Source: an uncultured Opitutia bacterium (GTDB lineage: Bacteria; Verrucomicrobiota; Verrucomicrobiia; Opitutales; UBA953). Taken from it: a DNA stretch of 64,000 bases. The stretch spans positions 124,001-188,000 of the forward strand of contig CAIWNE010000094.1 of assembly GCA_903913915.1 (NCBI GenBank), in the 5' to 3' direction. The translations under genes were made by a program, and so were the position numbers. Of this stretch, positions 8,690 through 27,533 are shown in pieces (position 1 is the first letter of the stretch; each line of letters opens with the position of its first letter). The notes beneath the pieces are model-generated. The model did no database searches. It saw only the letters and a program-made list of their open reading frames with translations, and was not told the origin of the DNA.

Positions 8690-11600
8690 TCACTTCTGAG
8701 CAACCCAAGTGAGGGAGTTGAGGAGGAGCTGCCTGTAGGCCGGGTGGCCGTGCGATTTCTCGTCGTGACCGAGTGCGATGCAGACGACCTTGGTCCCGGG
8801 ATACTTCACGGTCCAGACAGAGGGCAGGATCTTGGACTGACCGTCCTTGGGATTCTGACGAGGGATGGTGCCGAGGACCTCCGCGCCTTCGGGGCGGGTG
8901 AACTCGACGTTATAGCTCTCATCGTTGATCACGAAGGTCGCGGGGACGCCCTTCATGACGGGATGGTCGGGCTTGGTGACCGTGAAAGGGAAGTCGCTGT
9001 GGCCATGGCCACGGGCGCCGCCACAGACGAACTCGTCGTTATACTTGGTCTCCAGCGGCCAGTTATACCAGGTGGCCGCATGAAGGAGTACGATGCCCTT
9101 CCCCGCCGCCGCGAAGTCTCGAATGGCCTTCTGGAACTCCGGCGTGCCGAACTGGGCGTGGTTGCCGCTGAAGACGAACAGGTCGGCCTCCGGCAGCAGC
9201 GTCAGTGCTTCCTTCAGGTTCGGCGTCGAGGCGACGTCGTAACCGGCAGCCTTGGCCGTCTGGGCGTCGGTCCCGAGGAAGAACGCGGGGAAGTTATGCG
9301 AGCTGCCGGCGCCGGCGAACAATACGCGGAGCTGGCCTGCCTTGCGCGGACCGAACAGTTGGTCATACGCATGGGTGGTCTTCGGATTATCTGTGGGCAG
9401 CAGGTCGCTCGGCCCATCGTTGGGCTTCTTGCCGCCCTTGGGCGCAGGTGCGTTCTTGTCGGCCGGCGGGTTGGCCGGACCGCCGACTTCGACGGTGATG
9501 GCGGCGGTCGTCGGGGCGATTTCCTTGCCCGGACTCGTCAGGATGAGCTTGTCGATGATTTCGTCGCCTTCGACGGGAATCACCAAAGTTCGCACATGAT
9601 GTCGCTTGAGGAGGCCGCGGGCGGTCTTCGAGCCAGGAATGTCCGCATCGTCGCCGAAGTAGTCAGCGAAGTGCTGTCCGCCTTGGAGGCTGACGGTCTG
9701 TTTGCGGCCGCTGAGGAAGACGATGTCGACGGTCATGGCGAGCCCGGGGTGGCCGCCCCAGCCACCAACGGCGCCGAGCATGTGGATGCGAGAAGCGGCC
9801 AAGCCGACGGGGATCTCAGCGCGGTCGACGAACGACTGGGAGTAGACCTTTCCGGGGCCGCCCTTGAGCACGAGGATGTTGTTGCCGCCCTTCATCGCGG
9901 TGGGATCGAGCACGACGAACGGCACGCCGTTGGCGTTGACCTGGCCGAAGCTCACGAAGGGAAGATTGTCCCCCTTGGCGGCCTTCGAGGCGTAGAGACC
10001 GCCACGGGAATCGGCATTGGCTACGGCGGAGAGATCGAGCAGGTGGAATCGTCCGACGACGGTGGCGACGCCCGAGGCCGCGGTGGAGCGGATGTAGGCG
10101 ATCAGGTTGCGCAGGCCTTCGGGGCCGAGCGCCTCGAAGCCCTCGGGCATGAGCGAGGTCGCCACGCGCTGACGCGAGGCGATGTCGGCCACCTTGACCT
10201 CGATGACGATGCCCGCGGGCTGCTTGAGTTTCAGGACCGCGGTGTTCTCGCTCGCGATGAGCGCGGAATACAGGGTGCCGTCCTTGAGCTTGATGTTCCA
10301 GGTGCGGTGCTCGTCGTCGACCATGCGGCTCGGGTCGACGATGTGGACGAGCAGCTCGGCGGCAGGATGCGAACCGATGCCGGCGAGATTGGGTCCGAAG
10401 TCGTAGCCGACGTCGCCGAGGCGGTGGCAGGTGCTGCATACGCCGGCGAAGAGTTCCTTGCCCTTGGCGATGTCGCCTGGCTTCTCGACCTCAGGCCGGA
10501 GCTTGTTGATCAGGTCGTCCTTGGCCGGGCTCGTGCCGACGTTGAGCTTGGCGAAGACCGCGGCGGAACGCTTGGCGATCGCCTCGTCCGGGTGGCGGAG
10601 GAGCTGGGAAGACTGGAGCGTGGACAGCTGCATCGGCGAGAAGGCCTTCTCCTCCAAAGCGCCGAGCACGAGGCTGGCCCAATCCGGACGGGTCATCAGC
10701 CCGGCATAAGCCGCCTTGCGGACCGAACCTTCGCTGCGGATGAATCCGGCGAGCAAGGCCTTGCCCGCGGCATTCTCCCCGGTGGCGGCCAAAGCTTCGA
10801 CGGCCGCAAGGGCGGCGGAATCATCGGCGCCCTTGGCGATCAGCGCGCCGACGGCAGGGACGATGGCTGCGTCATAGCGGCGGAGGCCGACAAGAGACTG
10901 CGCAGACTGAGCACGCACGGAGGCCGGCAACTTGGCGTCGGCCAGCTGAGGCAGCAGCGAGGACGCGACTGCGGCGAGCTCGGCGCGAAGTTCGTCGCCC
11001 TTGACCCAGTTGGCGGCGAGCGGCGCCGCCGAAGCGGCCAGTTCCCTGACGCTGAGGACGGCGGCCAGAGCCGACAGGCCTGCGGCATGGTCGGCCGGAG
11101 CAGGAGACTTGCTCAGCGCGAGTTCGCGTAGGACAACCTTGGCGACCTCGAGATTCTTCGCGCCAGCGGCGGACTTCAAGACCGCGAGTCGGGCGACTTC
11201 GTCCGAAGATGCGGCCAGACTGGCGGCCAACCCTCGGGCGAACTGAGAGGAAGCAGAACCTTCGGTGGCCATCATGGCTTGCAGGATGGTGCCGGGGTTG
11301 GCGGCGGCGGCGGCCGAGGCGGCGGCCTTCGACCATTCGTCGCTGAAGCCTGACTGGGCGCCAAGAAGGAGAATGCCTGAGGCGGCGTCAAGCGGAACGG
11401 CCCCCATCGCACGCAGGGCGGCAAGACGCACGCGGGCGTCAGGGTCGACAAGCGCCTTGCCATAGACCTCGGCTGGTAGCTTGGCATGCGACGATTCGGC
11501 GGCGAGGAAGGCGTTCTTGCGCACGGACACGTCGGCGTCCGCGCAAAGCTGACGGAGCAGTCCGTCCTCCAGTCGATCCAGACGCTGCAAAGCCCAGAGA

Positions 11601-13801
11601 GCGAGGATACGCGCCTCCGGACGGGCGTCGCTGCGGACCAATGTCGCCAAAGGGCCGACGGCCGAAGCCTGCAGGCCGGCATCGCGCTCCATCAGCACGC
11701 GCAGGGCGTTGAAACGGACGGTCTTGCTCGGATGCGAGAATGCGGCGAGCAGGCCGGCGACGTCGGCCTTGGACAGGTCAGGAATGGCGAACTTGGGAGC
11801 GGAGTCGTGCTGGATGCGGTAGACGCGACCGAAATAGTGCTCCCGGTCGGGACGGACGGAGGCGCCGGACTTGCTGTGCAGCGGGCCGCGGGTGTCATTG
11901 TGCGCGACGACGGGCGTATAGAAATCAAGGACGTACATCGCGCCGTCGGGGCCGACGCTCATGTCGACCGGGCAGAACCAATGATCCATCGAGCGAAGCC
12001 ACTCCTTGTCTTCGAGGAGTAGGCTGCCTTCGTAGGCCGGACCATTGAGGGTCATCTTCTCATGGTGGATGATGTCGAGGATCGGCTCGGACATGAAGAC
12101 CGTGCCGTCATACTCCTTCGGCCAGGCGCCACCCTCGTAGACCATCGCCCCGCAGGCGGAGGAATAATGGCCGACCTGGTCGATCTGCATCAAGGGGGCA
12201 CGATCAGGCATGTCCTTGCGTACGACCGGGCGGCCGGGATTCACAGAAGCGAAGGCCTTGGCGGTCGTGCCGGGAGCCTTGGCCAGGATGGCTTCAGGCA
12301 GCACCACGTGCTGGATCGGATTACCGTTGGTCGCCTTGCCATGGAAAAGCTCCATGGTGCTGGTGACTTCGTTGCCGAAGCTGTTGCCACCCTGCGAGGC
12401 CACCTGCTCGATGGCGGAACCGTCGGGCTTGAACCGGAAGGTGCCGGAGGTGATGCGGGCCATGACCTCGTCGGTGGTGCCGCGCGTGGCGACGGCGCCG
12501 CCGCCGTTGGAGGCGTAGATCCAGCCGTCGGGGGCGACGATGAAATGGTTGGCGACGAAGTGCGTGTCGCCGGGGCGGAAGCCGCCGAATAGGACGACTT
12601 CCTTGTCGGCCTTGCCGTCTCCATCGGTGTCGCGGAGCCAGACGATCTTGTCCTGGGCGACGACGATGACGCCGTCGCGATAGAAGCAGAAGCCGGTGAT
12701 CAGTTCCAGTCCTTCGTGGAAGATGACCTTCTTGTCGACGACGCCGTCGCCCTTGCTGTCGATGAGGATGCTGATCTTGTCCTGGGCCGGACGATCGTAG
12801 CTGCCTGGGACGAGCACGCCGCCTTCGCGCCAAGCCTCGGCGCTCAGCGGACGACGTCCGTTAGGATACTCCGGGGTCTCGGCGACCCACATGCGGCCTC
12901 GTTCGTCCCACTGGACCGCGATCGGCTTGTGGATGAGGGGCTCGTGGGCGACGACGCTGGCCTTGAAGCCGGGTTGCATCTGGAAGGCGGCGATGGCTTT
13001 CTCCGGTCGGCTCGGGCCGCCGGCGGGATAACGGAGGTCGGCCAGGTCCTTGGACCCGCAGAGTTCGTCGACGTTCTCACGACGGGCGGCCCAGGCGATG
13101 CCACGCTTGATGAAGGTGCGATAGCTGGCGTGGGCGAGCGTGGCGGCGTCACGCTGCAGGAAGACCGCCGAACGCACATGGTCGTTCGCGAAGACCCAGG
13201 CCTGCGGCTGGATGTCGAAGACGGAAGCCTTGTCGGCGACTTCGGAGATCTTCTTGCGCGTGCTGGTGACCTTCGAGGTGAACGAGGATGCCATCACGTC
13301 GATCTTCTCGTTGAGATCCAGCTCGAAGACGGTGTCGTCGGTGACGTCGAAAGTGGAAGCGTCCTTGGAGAGCGGGTGCGCATCCGTGCGGAGATTGAGC
13401 ATCATCAGCGAGCGGAAGCGCCGGCTGTCCGGCGTCCAACCCGCGCCGAAAGTATCCTTGCCCCAGGAGGCGGACGGCCCGGCGATGGCGCCGCCGACCG
13501 ACACGAAGCCGATTCCGCGATGGGAAAGGTCGGCGAGCGCGGCGCGATCGATCACTTCGTAAGGCAGGTAGTCCTTGCGGTACAGCAGGACGACTTCGTC
13601 CTTCTCGTGCGTCTTGGCGACGAGGTCACGCGGCTGGGCGGCCTCAGTGACGACGGCGCCGGAAGCAGCCAGCTCCGCCGAGAGCGACTTGAGCGCGGCG
13701 GGGTCATCCGAGACGAGGGTCACCTTGATCGGGGCGGCGCCAAGGGCGACCGTCGCGAAGACCAGGCATGCACGAAGGAGGGGGGCGATGCGGGGAAGCA
13801 T
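8690..13801 (-). CDS. Giant PVC-type heme protein: ThuA-like, propeller, HEAT, cytochrome c, ThuA
   Basis: This 1703-residue exported protein (signal peptide to about residue 22) has, in order: a ThuA-like alpha/beta domain (about 24-250, ending GIAWAARRENVDELCG); a beta-propeller of the 'membrane-bound dehydrogenase' type (TIGR02604; about 270-680, with QPGFKASVVA, WVAETPEYPNG and DTDGDGKADKEVVL); a long alpha-solenoid of HEAT repeats (about 690-1100); a mono-heme c domain with CSTCH at about residues 1122-1126 and LMPEGFEALG supplying the likely Met ligand region (TIGR02603); a beta-rich domain resembling NPCBM carbohydrate-binding modules (about 1215-1430); and a C-terminal canonical ThuA domain (about 1487-1703, VFSGNHAQF, VLLHAATWYNWP). 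ThuA proteins act in 3-keto-sugar metabolism in rhizobia. The combination suggests periplasmic sugar binding, oxidation and electron transfer (inference). Confidence 0.88.
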   Translation of the reverse strand: MLPRIAPLLRACLVFATVALGAAPIKVTLVSDDPAALKSLSAELAASGAVVTEAAQPRDLVAKTHEKDEVVLLYRKDYLPYEVIDRAALADLSHRGIGFVSVGGAIAGPSASWGKDTFGAGWTPDSRRFRSLMMLNLRTDAHPLSKDASTFDVTDDTVFELDLNEKIDVMASSFTSKVTSTRKKISEVADKASVFDIQPQAWVFANDHVRSAVFLQRDAATLAHASYRTFIKRGIAWAARRENVDELCGSKDLADLRYPAGGPSRPEKAIAAFQMQPGFKASVVAHEPLIHKPIAVQWDERGRMWVAETPEYPNGRRPLSAEAWREGGVLVPGSYDRPAQDKISILIDSKGDGVVDKKVIFHEGLELITGFCFYRDGVIVVAQDKIVWLRDTDGDGKADKEVVLFGGFRPGDTHFVANHFIVAPDGWIYASNGGGAVATRGTTDEVMARITSGTFRFKPDGSAIEQVASQGGNSFGNEVTSTMELFHGKATNGNPIQHVVLPEAILAKAPGTTAKAFASVNPGRPVVRKDMPDRAPLMQIDQVGHYSSACGAMVYEGGAWPKEYDGTVFMSEPILDIIHHEKMTLNGPAYEGSLLLEDKEWLRSMDHWFCPVDMSVGPDGAMYVLDFYTPVVAHNDTRGPLHSKSGASVRPDREHYFGRVYRIQHDSAPKFAIPDLSKADVAGLLAAFSHPSKTVRFNALRVLMERDAGLQASAVGPLATLVRSDARPEARILALWALQRLDRLEDGLLRQLCADADVSVRKNAFLAAESSHAKLPAEVYGKALVDPDARVRLAALRAMGAVPLDAASGILLLGAQSGFSDEWSKAAASAAAAANPGTILQAMMATEGSASSQFARGLAASLAASSDEVARLAVLKSAAGAKNLEVAKVVLRELALSKSPAPADHAAGLSALAAVLSVRELAASAAPLAANWVKGDELRAELAAVASSLLPQLADAKLPASVRAQSAQSLVGLRRYDAAIVPAVGALIAKGADDSAALAAVEALAATGENAAGKALLAGFIRSEGSVRKAAYAGLMTRPDWASLVLGALEEKAFSPMQLSTLQSSQLLRHPDEAIAKRSAAVFAKLNVGTSPAKDDLINKLRPEVEKPGDIAKGKELFAGVCSTCHRLGDVGYDFGPNLAGIGSHPAAELLVHIVDPSRMVDDEHRTWNIKLKDGTLYSALIASENTAVLKLKQPAGIVIEVKVADIASRQRVATSLMPEGFEALGPEGLRNLIAYIRSTAASGVATVVGRFHLLDLSAVANADSRGGLYASKAAKGDNLPFVSFGQVNANGVPFVVLDPTAMKGGNNILVLKGGPGKVYSQSFVDRAEIPVGLAASRIHMLGAVGGWGGHPGLAMTVDIVFLSGRKQTVSLQGGQHFADYFGDDADIPGSKTARGLLKRHHVRTLVIPVEGDEIIDKLILTSPGKEIAPTTAAITVEVGGPANPPADKNAPAPKGGKKPNDGPSDLLPTDNPKTTHAYDQLFGPRKAGQLRVLFAGAGSSHNFPAFFLGTDAQTAKAAGYDVASTPNLKEALTLLPEADLFVFSGNHAQFGTPEFQKAIRDFAAAGKGIVLLHAATWYNWPLETKYNDEFVCGGARGHGHSDFPFTVTKPDHPVMKGVPATFVINDESYNVEFTRPEGAEVLGTIPRQNPKDGQSKILPSVWTVKYPGTKVVCIALGHDEKSHGHPAYRQLLLNSLTWVAQK

Positions 13802-13895: not shown

Positions 13896-14873
13896 TCAGC
13901 CCTCAGCCCGGAAATGCGACGGAGCGTGGCCGGTCGACTTCTTGAAGGCCGACGAAAAGCTGTTCCCGTTCGCGAAGCCGACCCTGCGGGCGATGACCGC
14001 CAGTTTGTCGTCCGACTCGCTGATGAGCCTGATCGCCTGCTGGATGCGCAGATGGGTCAGATGGTTCATCGGAGTGCGGCCGATCTCCTTCAGGCATAGC
14101 CTCCGGAGGTGTTCGAAGCTGAGTCCGGACGCCTTCGACAGCGACTTGGTGTCCCAACCGTGATCAAGGCGCCCATGGACCTCATCCCAAAGACGCTGCA
14201 CGCGCGGGTCGCCCCTGAAGCTGCCGGCGAAGCTCCGGACATAATCATAGGCCAGTTCGATCCACTGGTGATTCCGGCGCGAAACTCCTGCGCCCTTCAG
14301 TTCGGCGATCAGGCCGGCGATGGCCGCCCGCAGCGGCTCGGCGTCGAAATCGGCCAGCACGGGCGAACTGGACCGGAAGATGGTATTGGAGCGGACGCCT
14401 CCGCCGAATCGGATCCAGCAAAAATCCCAACGCTTGCTTCGGCCGATGCGGAAAGAATTACGGATACCGGCGGGTTGCAGGCAGGCTTGGCCGGCCGAGA
14501 TGGTCCGCCAGCGGCCGTCGACCCAGACCTGACCCTGGCCGGCAAGGCAGGCCATGAAGAAGGCTCCGCTCTGATTGGCGCGGACGACCTCATACGGTGC
14601 GAGCATCTCGGCCACGCCGAGGTGGGCGATCTCGAATAACCCCAACTCCTTGCAACGCACGCCGGAGAGGACCCACGGACGCTCATCCTTATAGTCGGCC
14701 GCGGCGACGATCTGGCGGCGGGAGTGCGGATTCTCGATGTCCGTCTCGGAATGACGGAGTTGCGTCTCGCTGTAATGTTTTAAATCGCTCTTGCGGGCCA
14801 CGTCCTTTGCATAAGACCTATCCCGCAAGGAGCAACCCCCGACCACCCCTTCCCTTCTCAATATCATGCCCAA
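13896..14873 (-). CDS. AraC-family transcriptional regulator
   Basis: The C-terminal about 100 residues hold the AraC double helix-turn-helix: LWDEVHGRLDHGWDTKSLSKASGLSFEHLRRLC, then IRLISESDDKLAVIARRVGFANGNSFSSAFKKSTGHAPSHFR, with the hallmark second-HTH 'A-x-x-x-G-F-x-x-x-x-S-F-x-x-A-F-K'. The N-terminal half is a cupin-like AraC sensor domain (VWVDGRWRTISAGQACLQPAG). It is divergent from the PEP-hydrolase/Tm-1/PL9 operon and probably controls it and itself. The start is uncertain: ATG 14873 overlaps the divergent start at 14866 by 8 bases and includes a dyad (14790-14829) that looks like an operator. In-frame GTG codons at 14801 and 14660 are alternatives. The first about 50 residues carry no family similarity. 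Confidence 0.88.
   Translation of the reverse strand: MGMILRREGVVGGCSLRDRSYAKDVARKSDLKHYSETQLRHSETDIENPHSRRQIVAAADYKDERPWVLSGVRCKELGLFEIAHLGVAEMLAPYEVVRANQSGAFFMACLAGQGQVWVDGRWRTISAGQACLQPAGIRNSFRIGRSKRWDFCWIRFGGGVRSNTIFRSSSPVLADFDAEPLRAAIAGLIAELKGAGVSRRNHQWIELAYDYVRSFAGSFRGDPRVQRLWDEVHGRLDHGWDTKSLSKASGLSFEHLRRLCLKEIGRTPMNHLTHLRIQQAIRLISESDDKLAVIARRVGFANGNSFSSAFKKSTGHAPSHFRAEG
14790..14829. promoter_or_regulatory. 8-bp perfect dyad between divergent AraC and PEP-hydrolase-like genes
   Basis: CTTGCGGG at 14790-14797 and its exact complement CCCGCAAG at 14822-14829, centres 32 bp apart (about three helical turns). It lies 37 bases before the start at 14866 and within the longest possible reading of the divergent AraC gene. 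A candidate operator for that regulator; binding is inferred only. Confidence 0.4.
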
Positions 14874-15738
14874 CCCCTGGACCGGAAAAGGAAACCCTTA
14901 CACCCGCACCGAAGTCATCGCCCGCCTCCGCGACACGATGTCCAAGGGCAAGCCGATCATCGCCGCCGGCGCCGGCACGGGCATCAGCGCAAAATTCATC
15001 GAACGCGGCGGCGCCGACCTCGTCATCGTCTACAACTCCGGCCGCTTCCGCATGGCCGGCCACGGCTCGACGGCCGGCATGATGGCCTACGGCGACGCCA
15101 ACGCGGTCGCGATGGAGATCGGCGAATACGAGGTCCTGCCCGTCGTCGAGGAAATCCCCGTCATCTGCGGCGTGCACGCCACCGACCCGCGTCGCCGCAT
15201 GTGGCATTGGCTCGGCAAGGTGAAGGACATGGGCTTCTCGGGCATCAACAACTTCCCGACCCACACGATCATCGACGGCAAGTTCCGGCAGATCCTCGAG
15301 GAAACCGGCATGAGCGTGAAGAAGGAATTCGAGACCGTCGCCCTCGCCCGCAAGATGGACCTGTTCACCATCGTCTACGTCGGTTCCCCCGAAGAATCCA
15401 AAGCCATGGCCGAAGCCGGGGCCGACGTCATCATCGCCCACGTAGGACCGACGGTCGGCGGCTCCATCGGCGTGACCAACGCCACGATGAGCCTGCCCGA
15501 AGCCGCCAAGATCACCCAAGGCATCATCGACGCCGCCAAGTCCGTCCGCAAGGACCTCATCTTCCTGAGCCACGGCGGCCCGATCAATACGCCCGAGGAC
15601 GCCGCCTTCATCAACGAGCACACGGACACGGACGGATTCGTCGGCGCCTCCAGCCTCGAACGCATGGCGGTCGAGCAGTCCCTCACCGAGCTCACCCAGC
15701 GCTTCAAGCAGATCCCGGTGAAGCGGAAGTTCTTCTGA
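14866..15738 (+). CDS. Phosphoenolpyruvate-hydrolase-like TIM-barrel protein
   Basis: This 290-residue soluble protein matches the PEP_hydrolase family (PF09370), relatives of isocitrate lyase/PEP mutase TIM barrels. Recognisable are IIAAGAGTGISAKFIERGGADLVIVYNSGRFRM (about residues 30-62), 'PVICGVHATDPRR' (about 102-114), GFSGINNFPTHTIIDG (about 124-139), and a late ADVIIAHVGPTVGGSIGV block (about 186-203). Such proteins nearly always occur beside or fused with Tm-1-like (UPF0261) proteins, as here, where the next gene starts 4 bases after its stop. The substrate is unknown; a C-C or P-C bond-cleaving reaction is plausible from the fold. It diverges from an AraC regulator that is its likely controller. 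Confidence 0.88.
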   Translation: MPNPWTGKGNPYTRTEVIARLRDTMSKGKPIIAAGAGTGISAKFIERGGADLVIVYNSGRFRMAGHGSTAGMMAYGDANAVAMEIGEYEVLPVVEEIPVICGVHATDPRRRMWHWLGKVKDMGFSGINNFPTHTIIDGKFRQILEETGMSVKKEFETVALARKMDLFTIVYVGSPEESKAMAEAGADVIIAHVGPTVGGSIGVTNATMSLPEAAKITQGIIDAAKSVRKDLIFLSHGGPINTPEDAAFINEHTDTDGFVGASSLERMAVEQSLTELTQRFKQIPVKRKFF

Positions 15739-15742
15739 GCCC

Positions 15743-18273: not shown

Positions 18274-19161
18274 ATGACAGTTCCTCAAGCCACGCGCCGG
18301 TGGGCCTATGCCGCGATGCTCTTCAACGTCGTCGCCTGGGGCATGTCTTGGGTCAACGTCCGTGCCGTGCTGCCCGAGGTCGGCTCCGGACAGCTCGGAG
18401 CCCTTCGCTACCTGATCGCCTCCTCGGTGATGCTCCCGGTCTGGCTGCTTCGCGGCCGTCCCCTGCCCGACCGGGCCGACTGGCCCAAGGTCGCCTCCCT
18501 TGGCCTCTTCGGCTTCTGTCTTTATAACCTCGGCATCAACTACGGTGAACGGACCGTGAACGCCGGCACGGGCTCGATGCTGATCTCCTGCATACCCGTT
18601 CTCGTCATCCTGATCGGCGTGCTGAGTGGACGCGAAAAAGTCGGCCTGCGCGCATGGCTCGGCATCGGCCTCTCCATGGCCGGCGTCATCTTCACGGCCG
18701 CCGGCTCCGAGACTGGCCTGACCTTCAACCTGGGTTCGCTGCTGATCCTCGCCGCAGCCCTCTGCGCGGCCATCCAGACTCTTATCAGCAAATCCCTCAC
18801 CCGTCGCTACGCAGCGGTCGACGTGACCACCTGGGCCATCTGGCTAGGCACATTGGGGCTCCTGCCTTTCTCCCATGACCTTCCCGGAGCGATTTCGCGC
18901 CTGTCAGCGATGGGCTGGGTCCACCTGCTCTTCCTCGGAGTCGTCCCCGCAGCCCTTTGCTACACGATCTGGTCATGGGTGCTGGTCACCCTGCCGATCA
19001 CGACGGTGATGAGCGCAGTCTATGCCATCCCCCTCTTCTCGGTCCTCTTCGGCTGGCTGCTCCTCGGCGAACATCCTTCCCTTATGACCATGTTCGGCGG
19101 CGCCATCACGCTCGCCGGGGTGGCCTGGGTTCAGTCGCTGACGCGCAAGGAGCAATCCTGA
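18274..19161 (+). CDS. DMT-superfamily (EamA) transporter
   Basis: This 295-residue membrane protein has ten predicted membrane segments in two homologous EamA halves. The first half includes LFNVVAWGMSWVNVRAVLPEV and RYLIASSVMLPVWLL; the second includes NLGSLLILAAALCAAIQTLISKSLTRRY and ends VFGWLLLGEHPSL-like sequence (FGWLLLGEHPSLMTMFGGAITLAGV). These are hallmarks of the drug/metabolite exporter family. Substrate is unknown. It begins 81 bases after the pectate-lyase stop on the same strand with no terminator between, so it may belong to the same transcript; that 81-base gap shows nothing else notable. Confidence 0.88.
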   Translation: MTVPQATRRWAYAAMLFNVVAWGMSWVNVRAVLPEVGSGQLGALRYLIASSVMLPVWLLRGRPLPDRADWPKVASLGLFGFCLYNLGINYGERTVNAGTGSMLISCIPVLVILIGVLSGREKVGLRAWLGIGLSMAGVIFTAAGSETGLTFNLGSLLILAAALCAAIQTLISKSLTRRYAAVDVTTWAIWLGTLGLLPFSHDLPGAISRLSAMGWVHLLFLGVVPAALCYTIWSWVLVTLPITTVMSAVYAIPLFSVLFGWLLLGEHPSLMTMFGGAITLAGVAWVQSLTRKEQS

Positions 19162-19199: not shown

Positions 19200-22100
19200 T
19201 TACTTTCCTAACTCAGCCGCCGACCAAGGCGCCGTCCGACCTTCGGTCGCTGCGCGCACGGCCTTGACTTGGTCAGGCGTCACCGCCGGCGCCTTGTTGC
19301 CGAAAGCATTGCGAACGTAGGTCAGGACATCGGCGAGCTGCTGATCGTCCAAGCCCATGGGAGGCATGGGCACGAGGCCGTAATCCTTGGCTTGGACCTT
19401 GGTCGGACCGGCCAGACCATGCATGGTGATACGAATCAGGGTCTGGGCGTCGCCAGCGACCCACTCGCTCTTCGCCAAAGGCGGATAGACACCGGTCAGA
19501 CCCTGGGCCGAGGCTTGATGGCAATTCAGGCAGAGGGCTTCGTAGATGGCCTGGCCCGGTGAGATGACGGCCGGGCCGCTGCTGGAGACCTTCTTGAGAT
19601 AAGCGGCCTGAGTCGCAGGCAGTTCGGCCGAGAGTTTTCCGGCGGTCGGCAAAAGATGACGCACGGTCTGACGTAAGGCGTAATCAAGGAACTTGTCCGT
19701 CGGTTGGTCCACCGCCGCCAAGGCGGTGCGCAGGGAAGCCTGTCCGCCGACATGGCTGAGGGCGACGATGGCCTCGAGACGAACACGCGGTTGCGCATCG
19801 GCGACAGCCTTGGCCAAGCGCATCTGAGCGTCGGGCAACCGGGCCGACCATTCGCCGACGACACGGGCGGCATAGGCGCGGATCCGGAAATCGGCCGAGG
19901 ACTGCAGTCGGTCGAGCAAGGCCGGACGAATGGCTCCATGCGACTGGAGCACGCCCATGGCTTCGAGGAACTGAGCTTCGGGACGATCCTTGGCAAGGAA
20001 CGCATCGGCCGCGGCGACCACCTTGTCCGTCGGACGATAGAATAAAAGACGACGCGCCTGATAACGCGTCCAGCGCTCGGGAGAACCAAGCTGCGCGAAC
20101 AGTTCGCCTTCGGTCATGGAGATCAGGTCCGGCTGCTTAACGGTCGGCAACCCCTTGGCGGCGATACGCCAGATACGTCCATGCGAACGATCGCGACGGG
20201 GGTCGGCGTAGCTGGCCTGGTAATGCCCGATCACGGCATTGAACCAGTCGCAGGCATAGAGGGCGCCATCCGGGCCGACCGAGACGTCGACGGGGCGGAA
20301 GGCCTTGCTGCTCGAGACGACGGGACTGACGATCCGCTCGGTCTTGAAGCCGGAACCATCGTCGACGAAGCGATGCAGGTCCAGGGTGTTGCCGTAATAT
20401 CCGCCGATCAGGGCGGCTCCTTGGAGCTCGACGGGCATCGCCTTGGTGCCGATGATTTCGACCGAATTGGACTTCAGCGGGGAATCGAAGAGCGAGTGCG
20501 TGCCGGCGTATTCGTCGGGGGTCTCGATCGCGCCCAGGCCAGGCAGGCTGTAGTAACCGGCCACGCGGTCGCCGCTCTTATGGAACGGCTGGAAATAATC
20601 GTCGAAGGCGACGCCCCAGCAGTTGTGGCCGGCCTTGCCGTACTGGAAGAACGACTGGAGCCGCTGGTTCTTGAGGTCGTAACGCATCAGGCCCGACTTA
20701 GGCAGGCGGACGATGCCGCGAGGTGTCTCGACCCGGGTGATCGCATGTAGACCTTGGCTCATCCAGAGCGTGCCGTCGGGGCCATGGCAGATCGAATTGA
20801 CCAGCTGGTGCGTATCACCGACCCCGAAACCGGACATGAGGACCTCGGTCTTATCTGCTTTGCCGTCGCCGTCGGTGTCGGTCAGCTTGATGAGGCGATC
20901 GAAATCGCAGACGAGGATGGAAGTGTTGCCGGCTTCGTCGGTCAGAGGTTCGACGCCTTGCACCATCGTCAGGCCTTCGGCGAAACGCACGGCCTTGTCG
21001 GCCTTGCCGTCGCCGTCGGTATCTTCAAGGCGGAGGATGTAGTCGCGCGGCTTCACGCCCGGAACCGCCTGGGGATAGGTCGGGGAGCAGCAGACGTATA
21101 GGCGCCCCTTCGCATCCCAAGCCATCTGGGTGGGCTTGGCCAATCCGAGCAGTTCGTCGGCGAACAGATTGACCTCGAAGCCTTCGGCCACCTTGAAGGT
21201 AGCCTGCTCTTCGGCGGCGGTCATCACCTTCTCCGTGCTGACGACCGGCCCGGCCTGAGGCGCCGGCGGGACTGACTTCTCACCGCGGGCCAAAGACTGG
21301 ATATGCCTGTCCCAGGATGACACCAGCGGCTTATACGCCTCGAAGTTCTCCTTCAACGACGGCGCCGGGCCGAAGCCCTTGCCGTAGTTCTGCGAGATAC
21401 GGTCACCATAAACGAAGGACCAGTTGGCCGGACGCCAGCAATCCGCCCAGAGACGGTTCTTCTCCACGATGGCCGGTCGCAGCTTCGCCGACAATTCGAG
21501 GTTATCAGGCAAACCGAGAGCAAAGGCCGTCTCCTGCCCGACCGTCTCGAGTCCTTTGGGGGAAAGATGCAGGCCGTCGGTCGACGGCTCCCCTTGGGTG
21601 ACCTCGGTCAGATTGACGTAGGGCAATCCACGAAGCTTGGCGATCTCGGCGACCGCGGCGGCATAGTCGGCCAGATCCTTGCGACGGGCCGCGGTCGTCA
21701 GGTCAGGCGGACGACGGGAAGGCATGAAGCCGGCCGGCGAAAGCAGGACGATGCGAGGAGTGTGGCGGGAGAGATCATCGAGCAGGCGATGATAGTCGGC
21801 CTTGAACCGGGCCAAGCCTGCCTGCCCTTCGAGGGCCTCCGCCTGGCCGAACTGCAGGATGAGCGTCGTCGCGCCGGCTGACTCGAGCTGACCCTTCCAA
21901 GGGCCGAAGTTCAGGTCACGCCACTGTTCGTGCACGGTGTCGGCCTCCCATGCCATGGAACGGAAGACGGGGTTTTTCTCGGCGAACGCCGCGGCGATAC
22001 GCGATTCGATCTCCCCGGATTTCGCCTCTCGCACGAAGTTTTCCTGACCGATGAAAACGACGACCTCGTCCTGGTTCAGGTCGAACTTCCCCTCCTGGAA

Positions 22101-22826
22101 AGGTGCGGGAGGAACCCAGCTCGACTTCACTTCGCCGAAACGGCTGAGCACCGCCTCCTTGGTCGTGACCGGCAGGTCGTTGAGCGGGTCGAGGACGATG
22201 TTGCGGAAGTAGACCTGCGCCTTGTTCTTGCCGTGGATCTGCAGGCCGATGAGCCCGTAGGCGTCATCGATCGACGGGTCGGTCTCGGTGTAATCGAGCG
22301 TCGCCTTGCCGTTCAGGAAGATCGTGATGCGCGGACCTTCGGCGCGAACTTCGTAGGTGTTCCAATCGCCGGTCTTCTCCAGCGTCTTGATCTCGGCCTC
22401 GTCCTTGACGCCATAGGCGCCCACGCCGAAGCCGGCCCGGGCCAGGAAGCGCTTGCGGCGGGATTCGTCATAAAGGCAACCCGTGTGTCCGGCGCCGATG
22501 TCGGCCTGATAGCCGGACATCTCGTTGGGCGGATTGGTCATGCGTTGGCTGCGAAACTGGACGCCGCTGTTCACGAATCCTTCCGTACCGACGAGCTTGT
22601 ACTCGAGCTTGAGGCGGAAGTTGTAGTAACTGCGCTTGGTGGTCAGGAACTCGTTGCGCGGATTGCCCTGCAGCGAGCCGCCGACGATCTCGCCGTTCTC
22701 GACGCGCCAGACCTTGGGGTCGCCTTCCCAGCCGGCGAGCGTCTTGCCGTCGAACAGCGTCGTCGGCGCGGCGACAAGGTGGCAGAGGGCGAGGAACAGC
22801 CAAAGCGAAGAGGTCAGTCGAGACAT
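19200..22826 (-). CDS. PVC-type fusion: DUF1080, SGNH-like, propeller, HEAT, cytochrome c
   Basis: From ATG 22826 this is a 1208-residue exported protein (signal peptide SSLWLFLALCHLVAA). Domains in order: DUF1080/3-keto-disaccharide hydrolase (about 20-215, TLFDGKTLAGWEGD, TGDWNTYEVRAEG, FLNGKATLDY); an SGNH/GDSL-hydrolase-like domain (about 245-450) whose first block is FIGQENF instead of GDS but which keeps a DGLHLSPKG block; a TIGR02604 propeller (about 545-920, with two DTDGDGKADK motifs); HEAT-like helices (about 930-1085); and a mono-heme domain with CLNCH at residues 1099-1103. An upstream in-frame ATG at 22892 adds 22 residues lacking signal character. A promoter-like element ends 10 bases before the chosen start. 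Probably periplasmic; likely binds, deglycosylates and oxidises a carbohydrate (inference). Confidence 0.87.
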   Translation of the reverse strand: MSRLTSSLWLFLALCHLVAAPTTLFDGKTLAGWEGDPKVWRVENGEIVGGSLQGNPRNEFLTTKRSYYNFRLKLEYKLVGTEGFVNSGVQFRSQRMTNPPNEMSGYQADIGAGHTGCLYDESRRKRFLARAGFGVGAYGVKDEAEIKTLEKTGDWNTYEVRAEGPRITIFLNGKATLDYTETDPSIDDAYGLIGLQIHGKNKAQVYFRNIVLDPLNDLPVTTKEAVLSRFGEVKSSWVPPAPFQEGKFDLNQDEVVVFIGQENFVREAKSGEIESRIAAAFAEKNPVFRSMAWEADTVHEQWRDLNFGPWKGQLESAGATTLILQFGQAEALEGQAGLARFKADYHRLLDDLSRHTPRIVLLSPAGFMPSRRPPDLTTAARRKDLADYAAAVAEIAKLRGLPYVNLTEVTQGEPSTDGLHLSPKGLETVGQETAFALGLPDNLELSAKLRPAIVEKNRLWADCWRPANWSFVYGDRISQNYGKGFGPAPSLKENFEAYKPLVSSWDRHIQSLARGEKSVPPAPQAGPVVSTEKVMTAAEEQATFKVAEGFEVNLFADELLGLAKPTQMAWDAKGRLYVCCSPTYPQAVPGVKPRDYILRLEDTDGDGKADKAVRFAEGLTMVQGVEPLTDEAGNTSILVCDFDRLIKLTDTDGDGKADKTEVLMSGFGVGDTHQLVNSICHGPDGTLWMSQGLHAITRVETPRGIVRLPKSGLMRYDLKNQRLQSFFQYGKAGHNCWGVAFDDYFQPFHKSGDRVAGYYSLPGLGAIETPDEYAGTHSLFDSPLKSNSVEIIGTKAMPVELQGAALIGGYYGNTLDLHRFVDDGSGFKTERIVSPVVSSSKAFRPVDVSVGPDGALYACDWFNAVIGHYQASYADPRRDRSHGRIWRIAAKGLPTVKQPDLISMTEGELFAQLGSPERWTRYQARRLLFYRPTDKVVAAADAFLAKDRPEAQFLEAMGVLQSHGAIRPALLDRLQSSADFRIRAYAARVVGEWSARLPDAQMRLAKAVADAQPRVRLEAIVALSHVGGQASLRTALAAVDQPTDKFLDYALRQTVRHLLPTAGKLSAELPATQAAYLKKVSSSGPAVISPGQAIYEALCLNCHQASAQGLTGVYPPLAKSEWVAGDAQTLIRITMHGLAGPTKVQAKDYGLVPMPPMGLDDQQLADVLTYVRNAFGNKAPAVTPDQVKAVRAATEGRTAPWSAAELGK

Positions 22827-22867: not shown

Positions 22868-22914
22868 CCCCAAATGAAAACGTTCGCCGCATGATGAACG
22901 TCAGCCAGGGTCGG

Positions 22915-22945: not shown

Positions 22946-22983
22946 GTGCCCCTGCCCGCAGGCCACCATTCGGCGGGCTGTAG

Positions 22984-23017: not shown

Positions 23018-23040
23018 CTCATGACCTCATATCCTCGTGC

Positions 23041-23715
23041 TCAGGCCAGACCCAGATGCTTCAACGCCTCGGGGGTCGGGCCGGCGAAATCGACCGACGG
23101 GACGTTGCCCACGTAGCCGACGTCCTTCATCCCCTGCGGGGTGGTGTAATACCCGCCTGCGGCGAGCGAGCGGAAACGGCCGAAGAACTGCTGCTGCGCC
23201 TTGAATTCTTTCTTCACCGGGGTCTTGCCGCAGATGTCGTCGGCGATCCGGCACTTCTGGGCTTCGTCGAGCTCCGTGAACTTCTTCTGGAAACGACGGC
23301 CGGCTTCGGCGTCGATCCAATCGAGGCCGGAGACGATCACGGGCTTGTCGGCGGCGCAGTTCTCATACGGGGCGCTGATCCATTCGTCGATGAAGTCCTG
23401 GACGCCCAGCTGGGAGGCCAGCTTGTCGGTCGCAGGATTGTCCGGAGGAAGGATGAGGTCGATCAGGGCGATGGCGGCGACGCGCTGGGCAGGCGTCAGG
23501 GTGAGCGGCCAGAGCTCCCCGGCGACATAGGTCTTGTTCAGCACCGGGTCGGTGCCGATGATCTTGCCCGCGCCTTCGATCGCCTTGGCGCCCGGTTCCT
23601 TGGGGGCGCCGAGGAGCTTGTCGGTGACGGCGGCTGCCGCGACGACGGCGCCCATCCACTTGAGGGCGGCGCGACGGTCGATGCGGTTGGCGGGTTCGGC
23701 AGGAGTATGTTCCAT
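23041..23715 (-). CDS. Gluconate 2-dehydrogenase subunit 3-like protein (Tat-exported)
   Basis: This 224-residue protein has a twin-arginine signal (DRRAALKWMG, residues about 13-22, followed by AVVAAAAV). The mature part fits the gluconate 2-dehydrogenase subunit 3 family (PF13618): LTPAQRVAAIALIDLILPPDNPATDKL (about 77-103), then a helical domain with VQDFIDEWI, and a late region rich in aromatic residues (FFGRFRSLAAGGYYTTPQGMKDVGYVG), which is the family's best conserved part. This small subunit accompanies FAD-containing GMC catalytic subunits, aiding export and folding, as in gluconate 2-dehydrogenases and glucoside 3-dehydrogenases. The GMC gene lies immediately upstream (10 bases apart), as expected. 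A strong terminator follows. Confidence 0.9.
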   Translation of the reverse strand: MEHTPAEPANRIDRRAALKWMGAVVAAAAVTDKLLGAPKEPGAKAIEGAGKIIGTDPVLNKTYVAGELWPLTLTPAQRVAAIALIDLILPPDNPATDKLASQLGVQDFIDEWISAPYENCAADKPVIVSGLDWIDAEAGRRFQKKFTELDEAQKCRIADDICGKTPVKKEFKAQQQFFGRFRSLAAGGYYTTPQGMKDVGYVGNVPSVDFAGPTPEALKHLGLA

Positions 23716-23725
23716 GTTCGTAAGT

Positions 23726-25501
23726 TCAGAGGTTACCCTTACGCATCTCTTCGATGAGATGGTCGCTGGCGCGCCAGGCGAGGGCCATGATGGTGAGGGT
23801 CGGGTTCTTGTCCGCGTTGCTGCAGAAAGCGGAGCCGTCGTTCAGCAGCAGGTTGGGAACTTCCCAGCACTGGTTCCAGCGGTTGGTGACGGACTTGGCC
23901 TTGTCTTCGCCCATGAGCGCGCCGCCGACTTCGTGGATGATCGAGCCGGGGGCTTCGATGGCCTCCTCCTTGGTCTTGCTCAGCTTGCTCGGCTTGCCGC
24001 CGATGGTCTCGATGATCATGTGGAAGGTCTGCTCCATATGCTGGGCCTGCTTGAGCTCGTGGTCCGACCACTTCCAGTGGAAGCGCAGGACGGGGATGCC
24101 CCACTTGTCCTTGGTCGTCGGGTCGATCTCGCAGAAGGAATCCTTGTTCGGGATCATCTCGCCACGGCCGGAGAAGCCGATGCCAGCGCCATACTTCTGA
24201 CGCACCTCCTCCTTGTAGCTCTTGCCGTAGCCGGGGCTCGCGCCGCCGGTACCCATGCCGGGCATGCGCCGGCCGGTGCCGAACTCGATGTGGTAGCCAC
24301 GGGCGAAGCCGAGCTTGCTGGCGTCCTTGTACAGCCACCAGGGGATGTAGACGTGATTGCCGGCGCCTTCTTCGTTGTGGACGGGAAGATTCTCGAAAGC
24401 CGGTACGCTGCCGCTGAGTCGGCCGCCGACGGTGTCCATGATGTACTTGCCGACGAGGCCGGAGCCGTTGGCGATGCCGTTCGGGAAGCGGTTGGACTTC
24501 GAGTTCAGCATGATGCGGGCGGTCTCGCCCGAACTTGCGGCGAGGATGACCGCGCGGGCCTTCACGGCACGTTCCTGTCCGCTGGCCTTGTCGATGTAGA
24601 TCACGCCGTTGGCCTTGCCGTCGGCTCCGAGCGTGACCTCGCGGGCATGGGCGTTGCAAAGGATGTCAAGATTCCCGGTCGCGAGCGCCGGAGGCAGGTG
24701 GACGGTGGTCGACTGGTAGTTGGCCTTGATCGCGCAGCCGCGACCGCAGTCCGTGGCCCAGAAGCAGGCCGCTCGCTCCTGCATGGCCTTGGCGAGGATC
24801 TTCTGCGCCTTGGGATTGCCCGGATGGAGGCGCGGCGGGAAGTTGACATGGTCCTGGCGCGTCGAAAGCACGGCGCGATGGATCGGGATCACGGGCAGTC
24901 CGTGCTTGGCGATGTGCTTCTTGACGAAGAGTTCGCCGGCGCGGGCCTTCGGCGGAGGAAGCAACGTGCCGTTCGGCGAGTCAGGCGTGTTCTCGAGGCC
25001 TTCGTTGGAACCGTAGACGCCGACGAGCATCTCGACCTTGTCGTAATAAGGGGCGACATCGTCGTAGCTGATCGGCCAGTCGAAGCCGAGACCGTCCCGG
25101 GAGTAAGGCTTGAAGTCGTAAGGTCCGTTGCGGAGCGAGATACGACCCCAGTGGTTGGTACGACCGCCCAGCATGCGCGGGCGCCACCACTTGAAATGCG
25201 TCTTCGGATCCTCGGAGGCCTGGGTGTAAGGCTCGTTCGGGACTTCCCACCCGCCGTCGACCGTAGCGTCGGCGAAGCCGAAAGGCTTCTGCCGCGTGCT
25301 CATGCCGCGCAAGGGCATCTGGCTCGGGATCTGGAACATCGGGGTCTCGGTGACGGGGTCGTAATTACGTCCGGCCTCGAGCATGAGGACCTTCACGCCG
25401 TTCATGGTGAGCGTGTAGGCGGACTGACCGCCGCCTGCGCCGGAACCGACGACGATGACGTCGTAGATGGGCTGCAGGTCTTTTTCGGAGATGATGGCCA
25501 T
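23726..25501 (-). CDS. GMC-family FAD-dependent oxidoreductase (sugar dehydrogenase-like)
   Basis: This 591-residue protein has an N-terminal dinucleotide-binding motif GSGAGGG (residues 19-25), and the C-terminal GMC_oxred_C domain with the catalytic pair His523 (HEVGGALMG) and Asn566 (NPTLTIM). It is closest in build to gluconate 2-dehydrogenase / glucoside 3-dehydrogenase large subunits, which oxidise sugars with a small subunit 3 and pass electrons to a c-type cytochrome. It has no signal peptide, as in that family, where the Tat-carrying small subunit (next gene) co-exports it. It lies 19 bases after the alpha/beta hydrolase gene. No dedicated cytochrome is in this operon; the heme proteins elsewhere in the window are candidates for electron acceptors (inference). 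Substrate unknown. Confidence 0.92.
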   Translation of the reverse strand: MAIISEKDLQPIYDVIVVGSGAGGGQSAYTLTMNGVKVLMLEAGRNYDPVTETPMFQIPSQMPLRGMSTRQKPFGFADATVDGGWEVPNEPYTQASEDPKTHFKWWRPRMLGGRTNHWGRISLRNGPYDFKPYSRDGLGFDWPISYDDVAPYYDKVEMLVGVYGSNEGLENTPDSPNGTLLPPPKARAGELFVKKHIAKHGLPVIPIHRAVLSTRQDHVNFPPRLHPGNPKAQKILAKAMQERAACFWATDCGRGCAIKANYQSTTVHLPPALATGNLDILCNAHAREVTLGADGKANGVIYIDKASGQERAVKARAVILAASSGETARIMLNSKSNRFPNGIANGSGLVGKYIMDTVGGRLSGSVPAFENLPVHNEEGAGNHVYIPWWLYKDASKLGFARGYHIEFGTGRRMPGMGTGGASPGYGKSYKEEVRQKYGAGIGFSGRGEMIPNKDSFCEIDPTTKDKWGIPVLRFHWKWSDHELKQAQHMEQTFHMIIETIGGKPSKLSKTKEEAIEAPGSIIHEVGGALMGEDKAKSVTNRWNQCWEVPNLLLNDGSAFCSNADKNPTLTIMALAWRASDHLIEEMRKGNL

Positions 25502-25520
25502 GGAGTGGGTGGAGTGAGAA

Positions 25521-27533
25521 TTACTTGATAGCGCGGAATTGCCAGGCTTCGTCGAAGAAGCCGGCCTCCTCGACCTTGCCCGGATTCTGGGTGTCGGGCG
25601 CGGTGTTCAGGTCGACGACGGCCCAATCCGGCAGCTTCGCGATCTGGCGGGCGTTGTTGAGATAGTCGTACTCGCGATAGGTGAAGCCGCTGTTGATCAC
25701 GACGTACTTCTGCGGGTTGAGCGGGTTAGGATAGACGAGGATCGGCGCATGGTCGCCGGCGGCGTAGGTCCTGCCGTTCACGATCAGCTTTTCGGCCGTC
25801 CAGGTGATGGGGAGCTTGGCGACGATCTTGGCGAGCACGGCGTTGCTGGAGGGGTCGCCCCAGAGGATCAGGTTGCCCTTGGCGATATCCTCGTCCTTGA
25901 CCTGCGCATCGGTCTTCATCGGAGCGACGCCGCGGAACTGGCGACGCCATTCGAAGACGGCGCGGTCCATCTCGGACTTCACCCAGCCGCCGACCTTGGC
26001 GTTGAGCGGCTGGCCGGTGGGCGCGACGAAGGTGAAGGCGTCCATGAAGGCGTCGTCGACGGGGCCGGAGAGTCCGTGCTTCTTGGCCAGGATGGCCTCA
26101 TCCGGACCGGCCGAAAGGGACCACTTGCCGTTCACGCGGGCGAACTTGGCGGTCCAGGAACGCTCGGAGGTAGCCCGGACGGCTTCGACGTCCTGACCGT
26201 CGATCTTCACCAAGGTCTTCTCGCGCACGGACTGCGGCGCGAAGCCGGCAGGCATGTCGAGGGTCAAGGCCGTGACGTTCTTCGTCGTGACCACGACATT
26301 GCGGTCATCGACGACCTTGGCGTCGACCCGGGCGGCCTGCCAATGGTTCTCGAGGCGGTCGACCTGAACCCAATGCATGCGATTGTAGCGGAGGAAGTAG
26401 GTCACGAAGCTGACTTCCTTCGGCATGCGGTTGCGGCCGGCGGCCGCGATGATGTCGAGGCGGCGCTCGACTTCGGCGAAGGCCTCAGGATGGAACTTGT
26501 GGGCGGTCTTCGGGCCGATGATGTGCGTCAGCTCGATATACTCCTTGGCGAGGAAGCGCGCCATGATGTCGGCCGCCTGCTTCTGCCCGTCGATCTCGCC
26601 GCTGTAGGCGATGGTCGGGGCATTGGTGAAATTGGCGGCGACGTCGGTCGCGTTATACCAAGACCAGAGCGTCTTCTGCCAGGAAGGGATACGGTTCACT
26701 TCCTCGGACTGGAAGACCTTCAGGAACTCCGGAGTCTCGGAGAAACCGGCGCCCGGGCTGATCGCGCACCAGCGGTCGGTGTAATGCGCGCCGAACTGCC
26801 AGACCGCGGCGCCGCCCATCGAGAACCCGCGGATGAAAAGACGATCGTCATCGATGTTGTAGCTCTTGCGGGCGTGGGCGTAGGCCTCCCAGAGGTCGAC
26901 CTCGCCGGCGAACTTGTTGGCGCAGCAGTAGCGGCCGTAGAGATGGAGCACCAGGCGGTTGGTCGCGGGGATCTGGCCGACGTTGGCGCGGCGATCCTTG
27001 AGGAAGGCGAGTTCGCTGAGCGTCTCGCCGCGACCGTGGCACCAGAAATCGAGGCGGGACGGCGAGCCGGAGTAGTTGTCTGGGATGACCATGCCATAAG
27101 GCTGGACGGAGCCGTCGATCTTCGAACGGTAGCCGCGTACGACGAGTCCGGTCTGGCGCGCCCACGGAGTCTCGCCCTTAAGGAAAGAAGCCGCGCGGGA
27201 CTTGCCTTCGGCGATGAGGTCATGTGCGACCTTGAATTCGCCCTTGTTGAAATACTCGTTGTACTTGCCGGCCCAATCGACCGCCTTGTGGTAGATTTCC
27301 AGGTCCGGCAGGAATTCCTCGAGACGAGGGTTCTTCGCCTGCGCCTTGGCCGCGACGTCGATCGCGGAGCGCAACTCCGTAAGTTCCTTGGTCAGCGCGA
27401 CCTTCTCGGCCTCAGGCAGGGCCACGGCCTTGTCGGTCGGAGGGATGGGGCGGACAGCCGTCGGGATATTGTCCTTCGGACCGTCGGCCAAAGCCGTGAC
27501 GGCAAGAAGAGAAAGCAACAGAAGGGAGCGCAT
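25521..27533 (-). CDS. Secreted alpha/beta hydrolase (prolyl-oligopeptidase-like esterase)
   Basis: This 670-residue protein has a signal peptide (LLLLSLLAVTALADG) and an N-terminal helical region (about 35-115). The hydrolase domain covers about 120-370: oxyanion region FWCHGRGETLSELAFL, and a nucleophile elbow GFSMGG with Ser238, which is the probable catalytic Ser. The acid and His are likely in YSGEIDGQK (about 310) and TAHKFHPEAF (about 345-355). The C-terminal 300 residues form a beta-rich module of unknown function (VTALTLDMPAGFAPQ, LILWGDPSSNAVLAKI, YVVINSGFTYREYDY) that occurs with this hydrolase type in PVC bacteria. It is the first gene of the operon with the GMC dehydrogenase, suggesting removal of ester groups from a sugar before oxidation (inference). 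Confidence 0.85.
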   Translation of the reverse strand: MRSLLLLSLLAVTALADGPKDNIPTAVRPIPPTDKAVALPEAEKVALTKELTELRSAIDVAAKAQAKNPRLEEFLPDLEIYHKAVDWAGKYNEYFNKGEFKVAHDLIAEGKSRAASFLKGETPWARQTGLVVRGYRSKIDGSVQPYGMVIPDNYSGSPSRLDFWCHGRGETLSELAFLKDRRANVGQIPATNRLVLHLYGRYCCANKFAGEVDLWEAYAHARKSYNIDDDRLFIRGFSMGGAAVWQFGAHYTDRWCAISPGAGFSETPEFLKVFQSEEVNRIPSWQKTLWSWYNATDVAANFTNAPTIAYSGEIDGQKQAADIMARFLAKEYIELTHIIGPKTAHKFHPEAFAEVERRLDIIAAAGRNRMPKEVSFVTYFLRYNRMHWVQVDRLENHWQAARVDAKVVDDRNVVVTTKNVTALTLDMPAGFAPQSVREKTLVKIDGQDVEAVRATSERSWTAKFARVNGKWSLSAGPDEAILAKKHGLSGPVDDAFMDAFTFVAPTGQPLNAKVGGWVKSEMDRAVFEWRRQFRGVAPMKTDAQVKDEDIAKGNLILWGDPSSNAVLAKIVAKLPITWTAEKLIVNGRTYAAGDHAPILVYPNPLNPQKYVVINSGFTYREYDYLNNARQIAKLPDWAVVDLNTAPDTQNPGKVEEAGFFDEAWQFRAIK

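Follow-up and report, generated by a model that had tools for sequence, protein, structure and literature searches.

Heme-containing giant proteins of an uncultured Opitutia bacterium as candidate parts of two separable periplasmic oxidation modules, one of them associated with a Tm-1-like gene pair

Several described systems resemble parts of the locus treated here. The rhizobial ThuA/ThuB system, the soluble pyrroloquinoline quinone (PQQ) sugar dehydrogenases and the fungal AA12 pyranose dehydrogenases, a family in which a PQQ-type propeller can be fused to a cytochrome, are among these, as are the three-subunit fructose and glucose dehydrogenases (FDH and GDH; 7w2j, 8hdd), of which a [3Fe-4S] cysteine cluster is a feature. 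Heme-binding CxxCH proteins of the Planctomycetes-Verrucomicrobia-Chlamydiae (PVC) type (TIGR02604/TIGR02603), Lac161_ORF7 included, have a core of propeller, HEAT repeats and cytochrome c. For Caulobacter, the available text of PMC9007349 describes the three-component lactose 3-dehydrogenase LacABC and a DUF1080 protein encoded nearby, CCNA_01705, the whole being proposed as periplasmic. According to the available text of PMC5028733, UPF0261 and TBST genes, the split bacterial homologs of tomato Tm-1, co-occur and are thought to interact. Here, a window of 64,000 nt from an uncultured Opitutia bacterium from a lake (CAIWNE010000094.1, positions 124,001 to 188,000; genome of 2.53 Mb, 94% complete) was analysed, in which two secreted giant proteins, P0001 and P0002, join ThuA or DUF1080 domains to a propeller and heme c. 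All coordinates are window positions and are collected in Table 1.

The propeller-HEAT-cytochrome c core of both giants is of the known PVC heme fusion kind, and P0001 and P0002 go beyond the known proteins by additional ThuA, DUF1080, SGNH and beta-sandwich domains. Unexpected, and testable, is the link between P0001 and the Tm-1 families, both of which are encoded beside it: the available text of PMC5028733 gives no link to ThuA or heme, and no published ThuA/heme or Tm-1/ThuA link was found among the titles and text passages listed from the open-licence PMC literature. The explanation favoured here, with a probability of about 0.48, divides the stretch into two separable modules for oxidation in the periplasm. 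Module A consists of the genes for an esterase-like hydrolase (EST), a GMC flavin dehydrogenase and its subunit 3, with P0002 in addition, and module B of P0001, an AraC-family regulator and the Tm-1-like pair PF09370/UPF0261. This view was built on domains, model folds, gene order and co-occurrence, from which we infer the substrate, the cofactor, the electron path, the order of steps, and the role and place of the Tm-1-like proteins.

In module B, the P0001 propeller is the probable site at which a sugar or sugar acid is oxidised in the periplasm; the heme of that chain would receive the electrons, the ThuA domain at the C-terminus would act on the oxidised product, and after import the Tm-1-like pair would finish the breakdown of that product. 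In module A, a fructose/lactose-dehydrogenase-like flavoenzyme would be exported through the twin-arginine translocation (Tat) signal of subunit 3, and within the genus P0002 would often have been gained as a neighbour, supplying heme c and a putatively 3-keto-glycoside-cleaving DUF1080 domain where such enzymes usually have a cytochrome subunit of their own. The narrower proposal that P0001-type proteins and UPF0261/PF09370 form one undescribed pathway, in which a quinohemoprotein-like periplasmic giant would oxidise and process a compound derived from sugar, whose catabolism the Tm-1 pair would complete in the cell, is advanced tentatively, at somewhat less than even odds. The association of P0001 with Tm-1 is a better-founded new lead than the reading of the locus as a single system. 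If true, the proposal would give the first concrete role to the bacterial Tm-1 family, the counterpart of a plant virus-resistance protein. The link would also provide a way into this family, which occurs in bacteria, archaea, fungi and plants; the available text of PMC5028733 states no role for it in bacteria.

The association was assessed in a class sample of 188 genomes, in which proteins with a best E-value of about 1e-144 or lower were taken as P0001-type, the next genome following at 1e-91. P0001-type proteins are present in 27 genomes from 20 genera and 14 families. PF09370 is found in all 27 and in 8 of the 161 genomes without P0001-type proteins (Fisher 7e-26), and UPF0261 in 27/27 versus 9/161; conversely, none of the 153 genomes without PF09370 encodes a P0001-type protein. 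Four of the eight P0001-less genomes have only divergent PF09370 proteins (about 53% identity or less to that of the window) and four have the close subfamily, so P0001 accompanies the close subfamily in 27 of 31 genomes. In the window, the UPF0261 and PF09370 genes lie side by side (14866-16948) as a split Tm-1 pair, and the UPF0261 protein has no signal peptide by reading. Outside the genus, PF09370 is located at most 1.1 kb upstream of P0001 on the same strand in five other genera (G149, G178, G228, G240 and G247), and in G178 and G240 UPF0261 follows, which places P0001 inside the Tm-1 pair; in 20 of the 25 genomes outside the genus the distance between PF09370 and P0001 is greater or the two are on different contigs. 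The order PF09370-UPF0261-P0001 was found in loci L228 and L230. The AraC regulator next to P0001 is kept across the genus, and matches of about 40% adjoin P0001 in L292-L294 and L298. Neighbouring genes of P0001 loci were identified by directed tblastn, the clustering of 38 loci being confounded by long antisense open reading frames (ORFs).

P0001 comprises DUF7133 at residues 266-666 (E 8e-104), HEAT repeats, cytochrome c at 1111-1147 and ThuA at 1517-1700 according to Pfam, and matches TIGR02604 with 235 bits (cut-off 122) and TIGR02603 with 111 bits (cut-off 68), the heme domain extending over 1109-1239. It has a Sec-type signal by reading and a single CxxCH motif at residue 1122, and this motif and M1218 are strictly kept among aligned homologues. 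The fused heme would be of the Kustd1711 kind, for which the available text of PMC11791136 gives about +350 mV. The first-pass annotation had described P0001 as a fusion of ThuA-type domains, in the plural, with a propeller and cytochrome c, and Pfam and the predicted model bear this out: the C-terminal domain is ThuA by both methods, and the N-terminal domain is ThuA-like in the model (Foldseek matches including 4e5v and 4jqs), this copy being degenerate. Active sites in the fusions, which had been left to be checked, turned out mixed. In a motif comparison with 4 usable copies of the genome's nine ThuA matches, the C-terminal domain retains H1574, H1601, E1628, Y1630 and H1679 and deviates at four columns that do not vary among the 4 standalone copies (E1641 for H, G1669 for K, K1671 for R, I1675 for T). 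At the corresponding places the N-terminal domain carries G, H, T, F and R, only H142 of the five being retained. The C-terminal domain resembles rhizobial ThuA in Pfam family and fold and differs from it by its fusion to propeller and heme. A separate gene behind that for the heme protein encodes the C-terminal ThuA in L228, L230, L233 and L235, an arrangement that speaks for a functional connection of the two; this ThuA was not found in the retrieved DNA of L231, nor among the matches listed for G260, one of the 27 P0001-type genomes. In the sister genus P0001 is present in 5/6 genomes, with best segments of 47-54% identity.

The propeller of P0001 is six-bladed in the predicted model, and its closest solved folds by Foldseek are PQQ sugar dehydrogenases; the fold is shared with soluble PQQ sugar dehydrogenases and fungal AA12 pyranose dehydrogenase (3a9g, 3das, 6jt5). 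Residues Y312, D412/H414, R456, N473, H634, R653 and R659 are kept in at least 35 of 39 aligned rows. A profile of 39 propellers could not be aligned well enough with PQQ enzymes for a residue-level comparison of the PQQ site. On the basis of these models, sugar oxidation may take place on the giant's own propeller, and we infer the cofactor and the chemistry accordingly from fold likeness. Since the giants have their own PQQ-sugar-dehydrogenase-like propeller, the GMC enzyme need not be their oxidase. If the propeller is an oxidase, each of the many PVC heme giants would be a complete sugar-oxidising machine in itself, its sugar-handling domains being exchangeable, and the annotation of carbohydrate breakdown in Verrucomicrobiota would change. 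The neighbouring genes include those for a PelN-like protein, GH28 and a sugar ABC transporter, which hint at uronate-rich plant sugars as substrate.

In P0002, the predicted fusion of DUF1080, propeller and cytochrome c was confirmed by Pfam and NCBIfam, which in addition revealed an overlooked SGNH domain. The protein contains 3keto-disac_hyd/DUF1080 (44-233, E 2e-40), GDSL/SGNH (300-447, E 8e-9), DUF7133, HEAT repeats and cytochrome c (1111-1195) with one CxxCH at 1121; it matches TIGR02604 with 193 bits (cut-off 122), and TIGR02603 is not reported, the heme domain matching PF00034 instead. Both giants therefore do carry domains of the 3-keto-sugar type on the same chain as heme c, as had been claimed. 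The DUF1080 domain retains all 21 positions that reach 75% conservation or more among 14 rows, in a comparison that used 20 of 25 matches from its own genome and in which P0002 itself supplied two of the 14 rows as well as the seed. SGNH/GDSL hydrolases are marked by a block-I serine (GDS) and a DxxH motif; the P0002 domain has FIGQENF in place of GDS and retains DGLH, and an active deacylase was ruled out because no block-I serine is recognisable. Full-length matches with conserved architecture are found in same-genus genomes at 75-92% identity for P0002 and 59-97% for P0001, which shows that the fusions are not due to chance.

The GMC dehydrogenase and subunit 3 that had been noted next to P0002 within 20 kb were verified by Pfam. 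The GMC protein is nearest to the large subunits of FDH and GDH and has a FAD motif; its active-site histidine aligns with that of the FDH mutant H1147A and is preceded by Ile, not by Asn as in FDH/GDH, and three of the four cysteines of the FDH/GDH Cys-rich stretch align in the GMC protein. Subunit 3 shares with these complexes a Tat-like signal (RR motif by reading; TAT_signal match of 0.016, below cut-off). Unlike FDH/GDH, the GMC gene is not adjoined by a multi-heme cytochrome subunit, no separate multi-heme cytochrome c gene being present between 27533 and 19200. The arrangement resembles LacABC and CCNA_01705 in that a GMC-type dehydrogenase gene lies near a DUF1080 gene, and differs from it in that no separate cytochrome gene exists and DUF1080, heme c and propeller are on one chain, and in that the adjacency of P0002 and subunit 3 was seen in one genus only of the sample.

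A GMC match was obtained in 40/79 genomes of the family, all 40 in the genus studied, and 20 loci from these were used as synteny sample. EST, GMC and subunit 3 genes are contiguous in 15/20, and the remaining five have GMC and subunit 3 without EST. P0002 follows subunit 3 in ten of the 15 (L172-L181) and is missing at that place in L182, L183, L184, L187 and L191. The gap between subunit 3 and P0002 measures 90-229 bp in the ten syntenic loci and contains a strong hairpin with a T-rich tail in nine, no good one being found in L180; the other gaps of the unit are 10-20 bp in the window, and that between EST and GMC is about 100 bp in L179-L181. Because of the long gap and the hairpin, the view that P0002 simply extends the GMC operon by a fourth cistron was rejected; counting against the rejection, a consensus scan that yielded 11 terminator-like sites (13.7 expected by chance) does not include this hairpin, and no promoter-like site was detected. 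Across the class, subunit 3 occurs in 29/188 genomes and P0002-type proteins in nine, six of these with subunit 3 (G195, whose match begins at residue 260, was not counted). Outside the genus P0002-type genes are near subunit 3 in 0/5 genomes, all on different contigs, contig breaks limiting this comparison.

The findings that weigh against the two-module explanation concern the propeller, the electron acceptor and the gene linkage, and are given here beside the rival explanations. In profile searches the propeller matches PQQ enzymes weakly (2g8s at 4e-4, 2ism at 0.05), and teneurin-like propellers outscore them in both searches (5e-6 and 3e-4). The hedgehog-interacting protein, a non-enzyme, stands at Foldseek rank 4. 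The likeness to soluble PQQ sugar dehydrogenases and AA12 enzymes lies in the fold, the sequence similarity being weak, and the profile alignment to 2g8s retains the Asn but not the Arg of an Arg-Asn pair which we take to bind PQQ. Both the missing Arg and the sharing of the fold with non-enzymes favour an explanation in which the DUF7133 propeller cleaves glycosides or binds sugars instead of oxidising them, the heme senses or docks, and ThuA, DUF1080 and SGNH are further sugar-handling parts. So does the report that a purified TIGR02604-HEAT-cytochrome c protein, Lac161_ORF7, frees glucose from lactose, although in the available text of that report (PMC5342196) the activity rests on a glucose oxidase assay of glucose release and no catalytic residues are named. 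In Paludisphaera, 18 homologous propellers among putative glycosidases and 20 DUF1080 proteins were counted (PMC5352709, in the available text). With PQQ sugar dehydrogenases as the nearest folds and the CxxCH motif and M1218 strictly kept, the non-oxidase explanation is considered unlikely.

As regards linkage, P0001 and the Tm-1-like pair might share genomes merely because these are large polysaccharide-degrading genomes, occasional adjacency being drift. Most of the 27 genomes indeed have 4-9 Mb, and adjacency is restricted to a minority: PF09370 is not within 10 kb of P0001 in 20/27 class genomes, four of these having it on the same contig at 50-160 kb, and of 43 named P0001 loci outside the genus (identity of P0001 below 58%) only six show a Tm-1 gene in the retrieved DNA. 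Several of these 43 loci have short flanks, and some are from the same genomes as the class sample. Furthermore, four genomes have close-subfamily PF09370 and no P0001, and the Fisher test treated related genomes as independent. This explanation appears quite improbable all the same, as the 27/27 pattern has no exception and P0001 is absent wherever PF09370 is absent, own-genus genomes of 2.3-2.5 Mb retain both P0001 and the Tm-1 pair, and the genes again lie close on the same strand in the five genera mentioned above as well as in a record labelled Deltaproteobacteria. The first-pass annotation had instead proposed one periplasmic complex, in which GMC and subunit 3 oxidise a sugar at C3, P0001 and P0002 take up the electrons, and DUF1080 and ThuA cleave the 3-keto-sugar. 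In its favour, all genes lie within 20 kb in the genome studied, P0002 adjoins subunit 3 in the ten loci named above, P0001 is in the same retrieved stretch as GMC in 8/20 genus loci, a DUF1080 gene near a LacABC-type dehydrogenase has been published (PMC9007349, available text), the P0002 heme domain weakly matches the FDH cytochrome, and subunit 3 co-occurs with P0001 (16/27 P0001-type genomes versus 13/161 others). However, 11 of the 27 lack subunit 3, the sister genus has GMC in 0/6 genomes, and in none of the 14 other-genus genomes having both is P0001 within 20 kb of subunit 3, 13 having them on different contigs. P0002 is missing from a third of the 15 loci and otherwise lies behind a terminator-like hairpin, and the genome has one subunit 3 match versus 22 DUF7133 ORFs with CxxCH (the GSDH protein excluded). 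The single-complex reading is supported in part and judged quite unlikely: its genus-level adjacency stands, and linkage of either giant outside the genus was not seen in the class sample, for which reason GMC as obligate partner of P0001 was rejected. In the retrieved DNA of the 43 named loci, neither GMC nor subunit 3 was found. That P0002 accepts electrons from GMC is a guess, its heme domain being nearest to that of copper nitrite reductase (7e-22) and matching the FDH cytochrome far more weakly (7e-8). Under the two-module explanation, modules A and B may nevertheless cooperate within this genus.

Table 1. Positions of the main features of the locus
Feature	Position	Strand	Remark
P0001: secreted ThuA-like (degenerate)/DUF7133 propeller/HEAT/TIGR02603 cytochrome c/beta-sandwich/ThuA	8690..13801	-	1703 aa
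AraC-family regulator, upstream of P0001	13896..14873	-	C-terminal helix-turn-helix, by reading
PF09370 (PEP_hydrolase-like/TBST) gene, C-terminal half of plant Tm-1-type protein	14866..15738	+	E 2e-105
UPF0261 gene, N-terminal half of plant Tm-1-type protein	15743..16948	+	PF06792 2e-62, PF23189 2e-82
PelN-like right-handed beta-helix protein	16945..18192	+	below NCBIfam PelN cut-off
EamA/DMT-type transporter	18274..19161	+	named from sequence
P0002: secreted DUF1080/degenerate SGNH/DUF7133 propeller/HEAT/cytochrome c	19200..22826	-	alternative start 22892
Terminator-like hairpin, then T-rich stretch, between subunit 3 and P0002	22980..23030	-	z -2.3; 9/200 shuffles fold equally well
Subunit 3 (Gluconate_2-dh3), GMC partner	23041..23715	-	PF13618 6e-19; Tat-like signal by reading
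GMC flavin dehydrogenase	23726..25501	-	among solved structures closest to FDH and GDH large subunits
Secreted esterase-like alpha/beta hydrolase (EST), first gene of the EST-GMC-subunit 3 unit	25521..27533	-	profile matches and synteny

Heme fusions of this sort are not confined to the locus. Profile searches of the genome gave 28 matches to DUF7133, 25 to DUF1080, nine to ThuA and one to subunit 3. A CxxCH motif is present in 23 of 27 ORFs with a DUF7133-like match (one of the 23 being the GSDH protein, and two of the 27 being halves of one interrupted gene). Pfam analysis of 20 such ORFs detected DUF1080 in four, GDSL/SGNH in five (one below cut-off) and ThuA in one, besides single cases of NPCBM, CBM4_9 (below cut-off), LamG or F5/8C. 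Chains that join heme to a sugar module are therefore a recurrent theme of the genome and not peculiar to this locus. Within the window, a third heme giant of NPCBM-DUF7133-HEAT-cytochrome c type is encoded at 36190-39369, and a quinohemoprotein-like fusion in reversed order, with cytochrome c N-terminal to a GSDH (PQQ-type) propeller, at 60791-62722. Three PSCyt1-PSCyt2-PSD1 proteins (PVC-specific cytochromes) are located at 40398-45073, 48199-51315 and 54922-58050, the first being followed by a DUF1501 protein. Neighbouring genes at 52835-54817 contain three DUF1080 domains in total, accompanied by a long antisense ORF without family match.

Further observations concern relatives of these genes elsewhere. 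In L270, a metagenome-assembled genome labelled Deltaproteobacteria, the order is PF09370-P0001 homolog-UPF0261, reflecting either transfer or a mislabelled bin. On plasmids of Azospirillum, Thermomicrobium and Halobaculum (3 of 230 records), PF09370 lies among genes for transporters and for various catabolic functions; neither a ThuA nor a heme giant is annotated near it in these three records, and no substrate is indicated. A distant relative of the P0001 propeller, the 'dehydrogenase' WP_013368537.1 on a Ketogulonicigenium plasmid (NC_017386.1, L286), has a separate c-type cytochrome gene directly upstream. This K. vulgare protein has 26% identity to P0001 in the propeller. Equating it with the known sorbosone dehydrogenase was rejected as evidence, since the available literature text places one such gene on another plasmid and does not name this one. 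Own-genus members with genomes of 1.3-1.5 Mb, such as G028, G038, G039, G059 and G078, yielded no match to GMC and none to P0001 or P0002 stronger than E 1e-34, which suggests that the lifestyle was lost; G048 (1.5 Mb, 62% complete) retains matches to GMC, P0001 and P0002. Among the 20 genus loci, the PelN-like gene was found in some and the EamA/DMT transporter gene is kept in many. A NIPSNAP gene lies close to the P0001/Tm-1 genes both in the window (5646-6431) and in L291 (4932-5258).

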